Below are positions 19,724-26,383 of a stretch of DNA of 26,383 nucleotides, one piece after another (position 1 is the stretch's first letter; each line of letters begins with the position of its first letter). Position numbers and translations under genes: made by a program. The notes below the pieces were generated by a model that was not told the origin of the DNA, did no database searches, and saw nothing but the letters and a program-made list of their open reading frames with translations. Origin of the DNA: a virus; the IMG/VR virus record IMGVR_UViG_3300043409_000106, positions 1 to 26,383 of that record; one strand, given 5' to 3'.

Positions 19724-19731
19724 ATTGTATA

Positions 19732-19749
19732 CCCGCCCCGAAGGGCGGG
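19732..19749 (-). promoter_or_regulatory. UUCG-capped hairpin after the major tail gene
   Basis: In the minus-strand RNA, CCCGCCC and GGGCGGG form seven G-C pairs closed by a UUCG loop on a C-G pair, an exceptionally stable tetraloop. It begins eight bases after the major tail stop codon and ends eight bases before the next ATG. No U-run follows, so it is not a standard terminator. It could protect the upstream mRNA 3' end and hide the next ribosome binding site. Confidence 0.65.
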
Positions 19750-19757
19750 ATTATCCT

Positions 19758-20282
19758 TTATGGATTAGTTGACCAACCGTAGTTCAACCCGCCGATAGGA
19801 TGTATGGTAAATATAAACTTATTCTCAGCATTGGGTTGCAAGTCCCACTTTAGACCGCCCACCATACCATTAAACGCGTAGGCAACGGTGTCAGAGCCAT
19901 CGTAAACAGCAATCACATAGGTTCTAATTACAGTCCCGCCATAACCGTCATCGCGGATTAGCAGTTGTGCTGCATCTGCCGGATTCCAAGCTGCGGTAGT
20001 TGTTAGGGAGGTCACTTGATTCTGAGTCGTGACCTTTGCGCCAGTTCGCGCACCCGCGACAGAGTAGGCCGCCACCGCATCATCAGCACCGAAAGCAGGA
20101 ACAGACTCAACAGGGATTTGGATACCATCGCCACCATTTCCACCTGCCGAGGTTCCGATTATATCGCCCACTTGTGAAGCCCAGACCGAAAGATTGGTTA
20201 CGCTTAACGGTGTAGGCGTTGCGCCTGTTTGCATCCAAAGAGTTGCGGTATATCCGGGTAAGATTTTATTGATAAGTGCCAT
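19758..20282 (-). CDS. major tail (tube) protein
   Basis: This 174-residue protein is at the normal place of the siphovirus tube protein, between the tail terminator and the chaperones. It is beta-rich with Gly/Thr/Ala loops and no long helix. The C-terminal 'LQPNAENKFIFTIHPIGGLN' and 'VAYAFNGMVGGLKWDL' segments look like tube-forming beta strands. Size is near that of small tube proteins. A strong AAAGG lies nine bases before the ATG, and stable RNA hairpin follows the stop, both suiting a highly expressed gene. I do not recognise an exact family; position and composition carry the call. Confidence 0.75.
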   Translation of the reverse strand: MALINKILPGYTATLWMQTGATPTPLSVTNLSVWASQVGDIIGTSAGGNGGDGIQIPVESVPAFGADDAVAAYSVAGARTGAKVTTQNQVTSLTTTAAWNPADAAQLLIRDDGYGGTVIRTYVIAVYDGSDTVAYAFNGMVGGLKWDLQPNAENKFIFTIHPIGGLNYGWSTNP

Positions 20283-20736: not shown

Positions 20737-21077
20737 ACAGGTGTCTCCGGGTCGTTGCGGTAACAAATAAATGTTACCTTCATCCGATCATTCGATTCCT
20801 TTATATCCGTAATTCTCCAGTCGAATCCGCGCCAAGTAATGCTGTAAAGATTCTGGTTGTCTACAATCTCTTTGTTATTCGGAGTGTAGTTAACCGTGAT
20901 GTTCACCAAATCTTGATAGACTCTATATCGCTCACTGATCCTCAGTGAATTGGCTACGTCAGCGATAAGCCCCCTAGTCTCGAACCACGGAGTGATAGAC
21001 GTGGTGTATTCTCCAATGGAGTTGACCCCATTCGATACATTATTAATAATTATATTTTCATATCTTGTGATAGCCAT
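20733..21077 (-). CDS. head closure / head-tail adaptor protein
   Basis: This 114-residue beta-rich protein contains 'ITWRGFDWRITDIKESNDRM' (about 79-98) and a terminal 'KVTFICYRNDPE'. The order (Y/W)-R-(I/V)-x-x-(I/V)-x-(E/D) before a final strand is seen in SPP1 gp16-type and HK97 head-tail joining proteins. It lies between the connector and the tail terminator. It would close the DNA exit channel after packaging. Starts with a TAATG overlap and ends with ATGA, so it is tightly coupled on both sides. Confidence 0.68.
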   Translation of the reverse strand: MAITRYENIIINNVSNGVNSIGEYTTSITPWFETRGLIADVANSLRISERYRVYQDLVNITVNYTPNNKEIVDNQNLYSITWRGFDWRITDIKESNDRMKVTFICYRNDPETPV

Positions 21078-21730
21078 TACATAACCAATGGCTTGTAAGG
21101 TCTGAGCAACTGAGATATCCCGAAAGGCAATTCCCTTAATATCTCACTGGTTGTATTGGAACGATTGTTGTATAGGCTCGTCAATAACAATAATCCAGCC
21201 TGTTTTATGTTTGGGTAATTCGATATAGGGTTTGCGTTCTGCGTATAGGTCACTATGATCGGATTGGCAAACGTCTGGTTCAGACTTGTTGGAATTGCCG
21301 ATACTACAACCCTATTCCCTGTCTGGTCATAGAAAAAGCTGGTTGATGCAAGTGCGATTGGCGCGTTACTTTCCACCCCGTAATAAACCACGGAGTTAAT
21401 GGTAACTCCAGCCGAGCCGATGGATACTTCTGGCAAGTCCAGATAAAGTGCTGTCCCATACACGCCAGAATTCCCGTAGTACACGCGATATTGTGTGCTA
21501 AATATCGCCATGCCCAAGTAATCTTCAATCGCAAATCTTGTTGCCAACTCTAGGCTTTCAAGATAATCATCCTGAGATTCGTCTTGGAATAAGTTTAGCT
21601 GTTGAGTAATTTCAGCAGTCGAGAGCCACTGTGTAACGGTATCCCGTGCTATTTGCTCTACTTTCGCATAGTTATAGGGGTTTCGGTTAGACCCGAAGAA
21701 CTCCCCTAACGTCATGTTTTCTACTGGCAT
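21077..21730 (-). CDS. head-tail connector (gp6/gp15-like adaptor)
   Basis: This 217-residue protein follows the capsid genes, as adaptor proteins do. Its N-terminal half has helices with 'LELATRFAIEDYLGMAIFST' (61-80), matching the 'A.. .IE.YL(G/N)R.(L/I)' helix of phage gp6-like connectors. The middle holds beta strands ('YLDLPEVSIGSAGVTINSV'), and the C-terminal helix carries 'QAGLLLLTSLYNNRSNTT' (the family's usual 'A.L.L...Y..R.....'). It would bind the portal ring to start tail joining. GGAG lies six bases before the ATG. Confidence 0.8.
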   Translation of the reverse strand: MPVENMTLGEFFGSNRNPYNYAKVEQIARDTVTQWLSTAEITQQLNLFQDESQDDYLESLELATRFAIEDYLGMAIFSTQYRVYYGNSGVYGTALYLDLPEVSIGSAGVTINSVVYYGVESNAPIALASTSFFYDQTGNRVVVSAIPTSLNQTFANPIIVTYTQNANPISNYPNIKQAGLLLLTSLYNNRSNTTSEILRELPFGISQLLRPYKPLVM

Positions 21731-21739
21731 GGCACACTC

Positions 21740-22777
21740 CTATGCTGGACAGACTGCACGGACTCCAGCAAACACATCGCGAATAGTTGAACATACCCGC
21801 TTCTCAGCGTACAGAGAAATAAATCCGGGCTGATACTGTTCCAACCGTTGAATACTCATCATCTCATTGTCAGCGATGGTCATAAAGCTATCCCACGCAG
21901 CAAGATAGATAGGGTAGGTGCTTGCCCCATATTCGCTCATGTAAGGATTTGGGATAACTGGGAAACCAAAGATGCTACATACGGAACCACCATCATCATC
22001 ACCTGATTCGAATAGAACTGGAAATCCGGCGGTGTCTTTTAATTGCCTAAACAATTGGATTGTGTCCGGGTGCATCATCCACGCTGTACACGGACTCATC
22101 CAATACTGTGCAGGAAGTGCAGAAGCTAAAGCGGTAAGGTCGTTGTAAGTAACAACAGTTTTAGACGCTGCGGCTGTCTGTAGCATCGTGTGCCGACCGT
22201 TAGTAGTTGCTGATCCGCTAGTGCCGAAAGATGCTGCCGAGGTACTTCCAGCATATAAATTTAATCCGCGCAGCCCGTCAACCTGACCAGTTTGGGGTGT
22301 TGATGCTCCGCTAGCTTGGTCGTTGTTCAACATCATAGAAAGGGCTTCTTGCTGTGCGAATTCAAGAGCAATATCCGTGACAATGCTTTCATCCAGTCCG
22401 TCAATATCTGACAGAATGGCAGTCCGAATCGGAACTACCGCATTAATTGATTTTTGGGATATTTGCCAAAACGAAGTTTCGTAATTCCCTACATCATTTT
22501 TTATTGAATAGCCCCACGGATTCGTAGTGCTGGTCTGGATTACTGTAGCGTTCCCCGTCTTGACTACAAACGCTTCTTCCGATCCTGTGGTCATTACTTC
22601 TCGAACGCCACACATACGGAATGGGTTGCCATACCTTAATGGCGCAAAGGCTTGGTCATAAATAACGCGACCGCCAACATCAGTACCAGACCCAGTTAGT
22701 CCAGCGGCTTCTTTCAAACTAACAACAGCCCGACCCCCGGACAGTGCTGTTTTTACTGCTTCGAGAATTAGGCTCAT
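21740..22777 (-). CDS. second HK97-fold capsid protein, without delta domain
   Basis: This 345-residue protein is clearly homologous to the upstream major capsid protein. 21 of 31 residues agree between its residues 22-52 and residues 104-134 of the neighbour. Both share 'IDGL', 'GLRGLN', 'LPxQYW' and a final 'PGFIxxYxEKRxC'. It lacks the first 80 or so residues (delta/scaffold part), starting near where capsid maturation would cut the neighbour. It may be a vertex or minor capsid subunit, a co-assembling second major subunit, or a paralogue under divergence. The start at 22777 (MSLILEAV) has AAGGA upstream; the longer open frame to 23002 lies inside the neighbour's gene. Confidence 0.85.
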   Translation of the reverse strand: MSLILEAVKTALSGGRAVVSLKEAAGLTGSGTDVGGRVIYDQAFAPLRYGNPFRMCGVREVMTTGSEEAFVVKTGNATVIQTSTTNPWGYSIKNDVGNYETSFWQISQKSINAVVPIRTAILSDIDGLDESIVTDIALEFAQQEALSMMLNNDQASGASTPQTGQVDGLRGLNLYAGSTSAASFGTSGSATTNGRHTMLQTAAASKTVVTYNDLTALASALPAQYWMSPCTAWMMHPDTIQLFRQLKDTAGFPVLFESGDDDGGSVCSIFGFPVIPNPYMSEYGASTYPIYLAAWDSFMTIADNEMMSIQRLEQYQPGFISLYAEKRVCSTIRDVFAGVRAVCPA

Positions 22778-22801
22778 GTGAGTTCCTTTTAATTGGAAAG
22801 A

Positions 22802-22819
22802 CGGGGGATTTCTCCCCCG
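22802..22819 (-). terminator. GAAA-capped hairpin between the two capsid genes
   Basis: In minus-strand RNA, CGGGGGA and TCCCCCG pair over seven bases around a GAAA (GNRA) loop, followed by GUCUUUCC, a weak U-rich tract. It starts eight bases after the first capsid stop codon. It may be a partial terminator lowering expression of the second capsid gene, or a 3' end protector for the first. Confidence 0.5.
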
Positions 22820-22826
22820 CGTATTC

Positions 22827-24170
22827 TTAGTCGTTAGCCGTATGGGTAGAACGGAAACGGATGATACTGAAAGGATCAACAACGCTGGTACATAGACGCT
22901 TCTCACCGTAGAACGTAATGAAACCGGGGAGTGTCTGATCGTATCTACGCATAACCATATTGAGACGGTCAACAATGGTATGACCGCGTGACCAGTCACC
23001 AAAGTACATTGGGAACAGATCAGGCTTGTCCACGCCAGCGTAGCTAGGGGTATCCAGATACTTATTCACAACAACATCGAATCCACACAAGCGACCTACG
23101 ATACCGTCTGTTTCCAGAGGACTCATACGCTCGAATACTGGGGTGCCGTTGTCATCGGTCAATCCGCGAATCTGTGAAAGCAAAATTGGATTGATAACGA
23201 AACGTGCAGATGTTGTCCAGTATTGTTGTGGCAACGCATAGATGAAGTTGATAACGTCCTTGTACTGGATGTTAGCTGCGCCAGCGGTGTTGCCGTTGGT
23301 TACAAGCTGGTCGTATGTGGCAATCTCCGACAGACCGCTTGACGAACCCGTCCCGCTTGTTCCGTATTCAGCGGTCGTTGTTACCCCGCCAGCGTAGGCA
23401 CCCGATCCACCACCGTATTGGTTCAGACCGCGCAAGCCATTCACCCCGCCCGTTGCCGCGATAATTCCGGCATCGTTGCTCTGATCGTCATTCTGGATCA
23501 TTGAGATACCTTCTTGCTCACTGAACTCGACCAACATATCTGAAACCACGTTGCTTTCCAGACCGTCAATATCGTCCAATGCTGCTGTACGGAGTGGGAA
23601 TTGAACGTTCAAGTCTTGCAGCGTCAGTTGCCAAATGTTCGTGGCTACTGTGGTTGCCGATCCGTTGTTCTGGATAGGATAGCCCCAAGCTGGGCCTGTG
23701 TTGCCAGTTTTCGCCCTAAATTGATAGGTAGAACCATCAGTTGCAACGGTGCGTGATACGCCGCGCATAGGATTAGCCAAACGCAATGCAACAAATACAG
23801 GATCGTATGCAGTACGACCACCGACATCCGCGCCCGATCCTTGCAGACCAGCAGCTTCTTTCAAGAAAGCGTCATACTGTGAATCAGATTCGAACAGGCT
23901 GATCTCTTTCTCCATCCGACTATTGGATTTTACGAAATCGCTTAGTTGTTCTTTGACTCTACGGTTTACATCTTGCGAGATGGTCTTAGTTTTAGGTTTC
24001 AGAAGTGCAGGTACTTGAATAGATGCGACCTTAGCTTCTAGGGCCGCGACTTTCTCGGCAACCTCAGTCCGCATGGCTTCCATAGATACGTTTACTTCGC
24101 CCTTGATTTCCTCGATCTTAGCGGTATTTGCCGCTTCGATGTGGTCTAGCTTCTCGATAACTTCGTTCAT
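22827..24170 (-). CDS. major capsid protein (HK97 fold) with delta domain
   Basis: This 447-residue protein has a helical, charged N-terminal region (about 1-85, coiled-coil type) acting as built-in scaffold, then the HK97 core. 'LKEAAGLQGSGADVGGRTAY' (103-122) marks the start of the mature part. 'AALDDIDGLESNVVSDMLVE' is the spine helix region, and 'LPGFITFYGEKRLC' is near the end. It follows the prohead protease by one base, with GGAAAC as ribosome binding site inside the protease end. By analogy to HK97, the protease should remove the delta domain after assembly. It is the main shell protein or one of two. Confidence 0.92.
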   Translation of the reverse strand: MNEVIEKLDHIEAANTAKIEEIKGEVNVSMEAMRTEVAEKVAALEAKVASIQVPALLKPKTKTISQDVNRRVKEQLSDFVKSNSRMEKEISLFESDSQYDAFLKEAAGLQGSGADVGGRTAYDPVFVALRLANPMRGVSRTVATDGSTYQFRAKTGNTGPAWGYPIQNNGSATTVATNIWQLTLQDLNVQFPLRTAALDDIDGLESNVVSDMLVEFSEQEGISMIQNDDQSNDAGIIAATGGVNGLRGLNQYGGGSGAYAGGVTTTAEYGTSGTGSSSGLSEIATYDQLVTNGNTAGAANIQYKDVINFIYALPQQYWTTSARFVINPILLSQIRGLTDDNGTPVFERMSPLETDGIVGRLCGFDVVVNKYLDTPSYAGVDKPDLFPMYFGDWSRGHTIVDRLNMVMRRYDQTLPGFITFYGEKRLCTSVVDPFSIIRFRSTHTAND

Positions 24171-24171
24171 T

Positions 24172-24963
24172 TTAGTTTCCTTTATTAAGACGTTGGGTTA
24201 AGGCCTTCAGTAACTCTCTCTCTTTTAGAGCTTTGAGAATTGCCTCGGCTTGCTTTGTTGCCACCGCGTCAGGCTCCCCCTGAGTTGGTTTAGGATCAAG
24301 AGCTTCGTTGTGGGCTTCCCGCTCCTCAACTATTCTCTTAAAAACCAAAGACGCGGTGGTCGCATCTTTTCTCGTCAACCCCGCATCCCGCAGGGTCTTT
24401 TCGATTATTCGAATTAATAGATGGCCTTCAGCGTCAAAAGCCTCTAATCTACTAATTTCTGAATTTGGATTGTTTGGGTACATTACGACAGAGACTTCCC
24501 GTAGACCACCTTTAGTAATTCTAAAGTAGCCATCAGCCTCTTTTGTTGGGTTGCCTTCTTCATCGACCAGCTCGGCTTCTTCCGCAAATGCCCCAACAGA
24601 AACACCGCCGAACATATTGGGAGATTCTTTTAATACAGAATGAAGATCAGAGCCTCCGACCGTGTTCATGTAAATCTGGCCTTTGGCGGTCATGCCTTCC
24701 TCATCAAACTCAAATTCATTCCATTGCCCGACAGGCATCCCGCTGTCGTTATGGTTTAGGAACATCGGAAGCGGTTTATCCGCTTTGGAGAATTCGTCTG
24801 CCCATTGAGCAAAGCCTTCTGGCTGATAATTAAATCGCCTTCCATCTAGCCCTTCACGCGCACCCCAAGTCGTTGCACGAGCGTGTATTGCACCTCTATT
24901 TCCGCTTACTGCGCTCTCGTCTAGGCTTAGTTTCGCTTCGCAAACCAGTTGCAGGTTCTTCAT
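24172..24963 (-). CDS. HK97-type prohead maturation protease (U35/S78)
   Basis: This is a serine protease of about 263 residues. It has 'PLPMFLNHNDSGMPVGQW' with the catalytic His71, 'MFGGVSVGA' with the nucleophile Ser122, and 'GGLREVSVVMYPNNPNSEI' with Glu156 (herpesvirus assemblin-like fold). The C-terminal third is helical and charged. It trims the scaffold part of the capsid protein and itself before DNA packaging. I chose the ATG at 24963, six bases after GGGG; another ATG at 24975 in the same frame (MGLSM...) lacks a ribosome binding site. It lies between portal and capsid, the normal place. Confidence 0.9.
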   Translation of the reverse strand: MKNLQLVCEAKLSLDESAVSGNRGAIHARATTWGAREGLDGRRFNYQPEGFAQWADEFSKADKPLPMFLNHNDSGMPVGQWNEFEFDEEGMTAKGQIYMNTVGGSDLHSVLKESPNMFGGVSVGAFAEEAELVDEEGNPTKEADGYFRITKGGLREVSVVMYPNNPNSEISRLEAFDAEGHLLIRIIEKTLRDAGLTRKDATTASLVFKRIVEEREAHNEALDPKPTQGEPDAVATKQAEAILKALKERELLKALTQRLNKGN

Positions 24964-25096
24964 TGATAGCCCCATTTTTAATAGATTGGTTATTATCTGT
25001 TATCTTATGTGGCGGCTCAACTATAGCGGGAAGTGTAACATCAGACTTCCGCACTTGTGAAGAAAAAAAGCCAAGTATTTTATCTAGGATATTCAT
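24896..25096 (-). CDS. small coupled protein between portal and protease
   Basis: This frame encodes 66 residues with an amphipathic N-terminus (MNILDKILGFFSSQ) and a strongly basic end (RSETKPRRERSKRK). It starts at ATG 25096 overlapping the portal stop as ATGA, has AGGAAAG upstream, and overlaps the protease gene by about 70 bases in another frame. The start position and ribosome binding site suggest it is translated. Small genes of unknown role do occur between portal and protease. The last 22 codons may be constrained mainly by the protease gene. No family recognised. Confidence 0.55.
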   Translation of the reverse strand: MNILDKILGFFSSQVRKSDVTLPAIVEPPHKITDNNQSIKNGAINEEPATGLRSETKPRRERSKRK

Positions 25097-26383
25097 GTCT
25101 TTCCTATATTCATCTTATTTGTTTGGTTCCCGCCGCCCCCACCCGTATCTTGTGGGCTTCTTCCACCTATCATAGCACCACTTCCACCGCTCGTTAGATC
25201 ATCAGCCCCGTCCATACCTGCCATATTCAAATACTCTCTCGCTTCATTTGGAGTGAATATACCATTAGTTACGCCAGCAACAACAAAATTCATTTGATCT
25301 AGGGCCGCACCCTTCAAGAAGTCTTTTGTATCAAATCTTACCACTAGGTTAGGATACCCCTTTAATAGCTGCTGTTTTAACTTCTGCTCGATGTTAATAA
25401 TCATCGGATACATCGTTGTTTTGTAGAACTCGTCCAGCATCGTTTGGGTGTTATTAAATTTCCCATCACCAATCCCAAGCATCGCTGAAGGCACTCCAAA
25501 TAGACCGCATATCCGCTTCATTGTCTGTACCTTTAGCTCGGCTGTCTGAGCGTCTTGCAAGGTAAGCATATCCACTGGAGTGTACTTCATACCTTGATCC
25601 AGCAGCATCCCTTGTCCCGCTTTGCTCTGGTCTGTGTTTCTCGTTCCAGTCATTGCGTTCCATGTTTCCTTTAGCCTAGAAGCTACCTCTTTGTACTTGG
25701 CGTCAGGAATAACCTGCTCTGTCGTGAAAATTCCACTCGGTTTCGCCCCATTTTGCATGATAAAGTTAGCATAAATGTCAATATCCTGATCTAAAGCGAC
25801 CAGTTCCGTAGCCAAAATACCCTTATTAAACCCGCTCGATCCTTGCCATGCAGCCTCTTTAACGTGCATAACTTGGTGTGATTCTAACGGCTGATCCTTG
25901 CTGAAGCCGTAGGATGGAGTGGATAAACGGTATGAAGGGTAGCGGGTAGGATTCAGAATAACCGTGATGAGGGTCGAATCCAGCATATACATCTCTAGCG
26001 GAGTCGCTAAAGAGTCTTGTTGATCCTTGCGCCACCATAGGGTAAATGATTCCCCGGATATGTCTTGCCACATACACCACTGATACCAGAACTCGTATTG
26101 GCTCTGGAAGTTGTTTGGATTCGTCAGCAGACCGATTACAGACTTCGCCTTTCGCTGCTCTCGTTCCGGGACTTTGCTTGTATCGGTTTCGGTTGCAGCA
26201 TTAACGTATGATCCATCGGCTTGCTTAGACATCACCGTTATTGAGCATTGCGCCAATGATCTGGCTTTCACGCCTACGCAACTCATAACAGTTGAATTCC
26301 GCGTTAATGCAGATACGTCTATTACTCTACCAGCGGTTGTGGTGCTTGAGGTGGTTACATAGAGTAGCTGGGAGGAGGTTATT
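25093..26383 (-). CDS. portal protein (HK97 family), 5' end beyond the window
   Basis: The frame is open from its TGA at 25093 to the right edge (429 residues visible), so the first codons are missing and the internal ATG at 26286 is not the start. Portal signatures: 'VSALTRNSTVMSCVGVKARS' (the A-L-x-x-x-x-V-x-x-C-V segment), 'MHVKEAAWQGSSGFNKGIL', 'FIMQNGAKPSGIFTTE' and 'RICGLFGVPSAMLGIGDGKF' with 'EFYKTTMYPMIINIEQKL'. The portal forms the 12-mer DNA gateway at one capsid vertex and docks the terminase. A Gly-rich end (GGRSPQDTGGGGGNQ) precedes the stop. Confidence 0.93.
   Translation of the reverse strand, partial: ITSSQLLYVTTSSTTTAGRVIDVSALTRNSTVMSCVGVKARSLAQCSITVMSKQADGSYVNAATETDTSKVPEREQRKAKSVIGLLTNPNNFQSQYEFWYQWCMWQDISGESFTLWWRKDQQDSLATPLEMYMLDSTLITVILNPTRYPSYRLSTPSYGFSKDQPLESHQVMHVKEAAWQGSSGFNKGILATELVALDQDIDIYANFIMQNGAKPSGIFTTEQVIPDAKYKEVASRLKETWNAMTGTRNTDQSKAGQGMLLDQGMKYTPVDMLTLQDAQTAELKVQTMKRICGLFGVPSAMLGIGDGKFNNTQTMLDEFYKTTMYPMIINIEQKLKQQLLKGYPNLVVRFDTKDFLKGAALDQMNFVVAGVTNGIFTPNEAREYLNMAGMDGADDLTSGGSGAMIGGRSPQDTGGGGGNQTNKMNIGKT

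Follow-up and report, generated by a model that had tools for sequence, protein, structure and literature searches.

A vertex protein of the phage T4 gp24 type forms the pentamers at 11 vertices of the head, amounting to about 55 copies. Well-studied phages other than T4 build hexamers and pentamers from one protein, whereas in T4 the hexamers consist of gp23 and the 11 pentamers of gp24; the propeptides of gp23 and gp24 are 65 and 10 residues long, respectively, and gp24 probably arose by duplication of gp23 (PMC9958956). HK97 gp5 and the capsid protein Rcc01687 of the Rhodobacter gene transfer agent (RcGTA) likewise form both kinds of capsomer without a second copy. Two HK97-fold paralogues also share a shell in the Family 2B two-component encapsulins, where they mix irregularly (PMC12407261); unlike phage heads, these are cellular compartments that have no portal, protease or genome packaging. 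Among tailed phages, the capsid gene is duplicated in Caulobacter phage Colossus (gp81/gp36), with a diverged copy that is encoded about 21 kb from the other and for which no role is reported (PMC3556154). A search of the open-licence literature for tandem HK97 capsid paralogues in siphophages gave no description of the pair reported here.

The window, by which we mean the whole 26,383-nt stretch of viral DNA analysed here (IMG/VR record IMGVR_UViG_3300043409_000106), contains a tandem pair of this kind, MCP1 and MCP2. Its head module, read along the minus strand, runs from portal, S78 protease and MCP1 through a spacer to MCP2, the head-tail adaptor Ad1, connectors, tail genes and tape measure, and includes the following features:

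25093-26382, minus strand: portal protein (PF04860, 196.1 bits), truncated by the window edge
24172-24975, minus strand: prohead protease, S78 (PF04586, 36.7 bits; phrog_80), directly upstream of MCP1
22827-24170, minus strand: MCP1, HK97-fold major capsid protein with an N-terminal delta (scaffold) domain, 447 aa (PF05065, phrog_10, Foldseek)
23859-24170, minus strand: delta-like helical domain of MCP1, about residues 1-104 (predicted helices, low pLDDT; conserved in relatives)
22778-22826, minus strand: spacer between MCP1 and MCP2, 49 nt
22801-22820, minus strand: GC-rich hairpin, 8 bp with a 4-nt loop, terminator- or processing-like (-19.0 kcal/mol)
22783-22788, minus strand: Shine-Dalgarno-like AAGGAA upstream of MCP2, read from the sequence
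21740-22777, minus strand: MCP2, second HK97-fold capsid protein, without a delta domain, 345 aa (PF05065, phrog_10, Foldseek)
22709-22777, minus strand: N-terminal leader of MCP2, about 22-23 residues, ending in a conserved L-x-E
21077-21730, minus strand: Ad1 (phrog_442 and phrog_40), immediately following MCP2

An initial annotation of this DNA, made from the sequence alone, had described two tandem HK97-fold capsid paralogues, and this description holds for both genes. MCP1 and MCP2 are 39% identical over 350 aa (BLASTP, 209 bits, E 2e-68), both match the Pfam family Phage_capsid (PF05065; 97.4 bits for MCP1 and 76.9 bits for MCP2, cut-off 24.2), and both match the PHROG major head protein family phrog_10. 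Structure prediction for the two proteins, which the annotation had recommended, returned HK97-fold matches for each monomer: with low-confidence models as queries against the PDB, Foldseek placed the RcGTA capsid first for both (E 3.5e-10 and 4.7e-10), and both models also matched the HK97 capsid (E about 1e-8 to 1e-6). These AlphaFold models are monomers only, built on shallow alignments (32-33 rows), and have low mean pLDDT (50.7 for MCP1, 55.9 for MCP2). RcGTA is also the closest solved capsid by sequence profile; the profile searches of the PDB retrieved RcGTA and cf-PICI capsids only, with no match to T4 gp23 or gp24. MCP2 starts at the ATG at 22777, and the 420-aa open reading frame listed mechanically is the same frame extended upstream, nothing more. 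We rejected an origin of the pair by chance or artefact, which is ruled out by the BLASTP E value together with the universal pairing in relatives described below, and also a single gene split by a frameshift, which is ruled out because both cores are complete and each has a start of its own.

The two proteins differ most at their N-termini. As had been claimed, a delta domain is found in one copy only: MCP1, encoded next to a protease gene, has the helical N-terminal extension of about 100 residues that marks a fused delta domain, and MCP2 does not; in HK97, too, a delta domain is fused to the capsid protein and the protease gene lies upstream. The low-pLDDT model of MCP1 has helices at residues 2-50, 64-81 and 96-107 ahead of the core, whereas that of MCP2 has two helices there, one of 13 residues and one short, with a strand between them, and nothing else. 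In the relatives described below, the residues preceding the conserved core number about 118 in MCP1 and 38 in MCP2 (medians). The initial annotation had further supposed that MCP2 is made already mature, and this is doubtful, since its conserved leader of about 22 residues ends in the same hydrophobic-x-Glu motif that is found in MCP1. Indeed, the motif and a similar stretch (consensus LKEASALTGSG) occur in each paralogue in 60/60 parsed pairs, ten more pairs falling outside the parsing pattern. Because the motif is common to both proteins and an S78 protease gene is present at all loci with room for it, we suggest that the protease probably trims both proteins at this shared site; MCP1 would lose about 100 residues in this way and MCP2 about 22, and "already mature" is then probably not an exact description of MCP2. 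Other phage heads also have known Glu-type sites; SPN3US proteins, for example, are processed at A-x-E (PMC5694885).

The annotation had also proposed a search of metagenomic phage genomes for the same tandem pair, and we find the pair to be universal among the loci collected from the group to which the window belongs. Loci were collected from IMG/VR scans (the queries being MCP2, an MCP1 profile and two divergent MCP1 proteins), a scan of GTDB genomes and Methylophilaceae phage P19250A, giving a total of at least 318 loci, with each viral scan contributing its 80 best; several loci share a contig, such that the counts are partly non-independent, and they comprise 188 different spacers and 70 pairs that are non-redundant. 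Among the matches listed, MCP2 is present at 301/301 loci where 400 nt or more of sequence follow MCP1, including loci fetched by an MCP1 query alone, and MCP1 is present at all 59 MCP2 loci of the first scan with upstream room. The same matches have the order MCP1 then MCP2 in 307/307 loci, an S78 protease gene in 254/254 loci with room, and Ad1 directly after MCP2 in 264/264 loci with room. No group member with a single MCP was found among the matches listed for the four MCP1 queries (best 80 loci per viral scan); rare losses of MCP2 may exist beyond these best 80. The observation of a duplicated capsid gene is thus confirmed, and is stronger than first thought.

The group consists of large numbers of mostly uncultured, small tailed phages. 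In a phage collection of 50,697 records, the pair occurs in P19250A alone (KX815270), a cultured siphovirus that infects Methylopumilus planktonicus (PMC7678222). P19250A has the same tandem pair as the window, in the same place and with a hairpin; its MCP2, annotated as "hypothetical protein", is about 51% identical to that of the window, and its MCP1 about 66%. By contrast, Bcep176, ST64B and RHph_X2_25, which rank among the nearest relatives with a single copy in the collection, have portal, protease, capsid and connector genes in a like order, with one capsid gene of this family and no MCP2 before Ad1. The ST64B product that bears the label "major head protein", sb5, occupies the protease position. 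The pair was also found on contigs binned with Nitrosotalea, Alpha-, Beta- and Gammaproteobacteria and Rhodocyclaceae MAGs (L161-L165); the archaeal (Nitrosotalea) assignment probably reflects mis-binned phage contigs. The reading frame appears broken in two loci, at the end of MCP2 in L053 (6930-7040) and inside MCP1 in L046 (258-1669), which could reflect errors of assembly or genuine damage.

In a tree of the 70 pairs, a single branch with 100% support divides all MCP1 from all MCP2 sequences, and when four single-MCP phages are added, MCP1 and MCP2 are jointly set apart from them (support 100/100). Since the two copies form separate clades that lie together apart from the single-MCP phages, their sequences indicate one old duplication in this lineage that predates the diversification of the group. 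Long branches leave the exact root of the tree with single-MCP phages unsettled; MCP1 is the slower copy, and a long stem leads to MCP2. MCP2 is indeed the faster evolver (mean pairwise identity 0.59, versus 0.68 for MCP1), and it is under purifying selection: median dN/dS is 0.092 for MCP2 (maximum 0.39) and 0.077 for MCP1, from 481 unsaturated comparisons that share sequences and are non-independent. The HK97 core of MCP2 is whole, with some 70-85 invariant positions. Loss of the second gene, or relaxed selection on it, was the outcome against which the initial annotation had staked its proposal; among the matches listed we find the gene at every one of the 301 loci and under constraint, and these two results rule out decay of the second copy.

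The spacer between the two genes is conserved as a structure. The hairpin noted there by the initial annotation is real, and a stem of 6 bp or more, 5 or more of them GC pairs, is found in 187/188 different spacers, compared with 0.6% of shuffled spacers, each being the perfect stem picked by best pairing, such that the pair types listed are no separate test of covariation. These stems have 103 different 5' arms, and therefore the structure is preserved while its sequence varies. Spacers between MCP1 and MCP2 fold at -12 kcal/mol or below in all 70 non-redundant pairs; in a slot-by-slot control, none of the protease-MCP1, MCP2-Ad1 and Ad1-next spacers does so, these being mostly about 10 nt or shorter. 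An intrinsic terminator would have a U-run behind its GC-rich stem; at least five T residues lie within 10 nt after the stem in 169/188 different spacers. The run after the stem in the window is merely CTTT, the U-run being stronger in relatives, and with this weak run true termination at the window hairpin is not certain. MCP2 lies on the downstream side of the hairpin, grouped with low-copy connector genes. The simplest reading of the conserved element is that it lowers expression past the most abundant virion gene, and its conservation suggests an unequal supply of MCP1 and MCP2.

Some loci carry additional sequences in or around this slot. The sole spacer without a stem (L098/L099) holds an HNH-like endonuclease ORF; homing endonuclease-like ORFs (NUMOD3, GIY-YIG-like) lie between MCP1 and MCP2 in L053 (5339-5992) and L131, with the stem kept in both. 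A second GC hairpin in the window, at 19724-19757 (7 bp, TTCG loop, -15.1 kcal/mol), comes after the gene at 19758-20282, whose 174-aa product is likely the major tail protein, judged by position, and terminator-like hairpins occur at the tail-gene position in relatives L035 and L051 as well. Strongly folded "spacers" about 4.4 kb downstream were discarded, as they resemble coding sequence whose start had been missed.

MCP2 has gained domains. N-terminal fusions of a domain of about 100 residues (MPKPT..., phrog_2859, function unknown) are found at seven loci (L034, L036, L037, L039, L054, L129 and L143), where the domain occupies the slot in which a delta domain would stand. Four loci (L055, L056, L057 and L110) have inserts in the E-loop region of MCP2 that are about 70 residues long, with T, V and G abundant; the L055 insert matches phrog_21413 (unknown) and phrog_38233 (tail fibre), and these inserts possibly form a surface domain. 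MCP1 has no domain gains, its length staying within 437-462 aa (first set). Such gains fit a low-copy capsomer, in which extra domains would be better tolerated, a weak argument in our view.

We propose, by analogy with T4, that MCP1 and MCP2 are two subunits of one HK97-type shell in which MCP2 forms the pentamers as gp24 does, and we think this probable. MCP1, self-scaffolding through its delta domain and overproduced, would assemble hexamers around the portal; MCP2, lacking a scaffold and supplied at a lower level past a conserved partial terminator, would fill the 11 non-portal vertices as pentamers; after assembly, the protease would trim both proteins and the head would then expand. We infer here the vertex position and copy number of MCP2, the cleavage site and the action of the hairpin. 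Of the two-subunit shell or vertex protein with a ratio-setting hairpin that the initial annotation had envisaged, the parts that stand are a second protein that is kept and under selection and a conserved hairpin; the part that is in doubt is its being made mature. As in T4, there are two HK97-fold paralogues; the long N-terminal extension of the main copy and the short one of the second would, if trimmed, parallel the propeptides of gp23 and gp24. T4 is, however, a large prolate myophage whose gp23 and gp24 are about 20% identical, compared with 39% for the window pair, in which the scaffold is fused to MCP1, and the phages described here are small (38.7 kb for P19250A). The proposed T4-like working is an analogy and implies no membership of the T4 family.

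The main rival to the vertex model is a mixed shell, in which MCP1 and MCP2 would occur together in hexamers and pentamers alike, with a variable or patterned composition. The 39% identity and common core mean that MCP2 could co-assemble with MCP1, and two-component HK97-fold encapsulin shells are indeed mixed, with variable composition and irregular tiling (PMC12407261). We nonetheless regard a mixed shell as unlikely, since the conserved hairpin suggests unequal supply, a scaffold-less MCP2 would upset scaffold contacts within hexamers, and MCP2 accepts large insertions that MCP1 never does. An alternative possibility is that MCP2 is a minor HK97-fold head protein that acts elsewhere, at the portal vertex or in control of size or maturation, and is no general penton. 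Its position directly before Ad1 at all loci with room (among the matches listed), on the low side of the hairpin, would suit such a role, and a hairpin after the major capsid gene would equally reduce a plain minor protein. We know of no phage that uses an HK97-fold protein in this way, however, and the retention of an entire HK97 core exceeds the needs of a small adaptor, making this reading more improbable still.

The hairpin itself may have no special tie to MCP2, being an element of general use that follows an abundant gene and acts as a step-down or in mRNA stability. This could well be so, although we lean somewhat against it: the window has its second hairpin after the presumed major tail protein, and so do some relatives, but the spacer between MCP1 and MCP2 is far stricter, with 70/70 folded against a minority of clear cases at the tail gene. 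A generic hairpin would be compatible with the vertex model or with any of its rivals. Lastly, MCP2 might not be a virion protein at all but a decoy, a regulator or a duplicate heading for loss. Its faster evolution agrees with such a fate; this is nonetheless very improbable for a full-length core from an old duplication that is under purifying selection and, among the matches listed, is never lost.

A more far-reaching form of the vertex model is an obligate two-protein shell, in which hexamers are scaffolded and vertices are not, the hairpin sets the ratio, and the vertex subunit serves as a platform for surface or internal domains. We offer this combination tentatively, as close to a toss-up. 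If it is true, a group of small siphophages with a cultured member would provide a simple system for studying how hexamer and pentamer roles are split after a duplication, and the two-protein solution of T4 would appear to have arisen more than once. Many phage genomes would then also hold a second capsid gene, annotated as hypothetical or as a second "major" capsid protein.

Away from the head genes, in the tail-tip module of the window, the gene at 14490-14933 matches the PHROG acetyltransferase family phrog_1249 (E 2.4e-9). This is an unusual position for such a gene, which adjoins a 1054-aa host-specificity-like gene.
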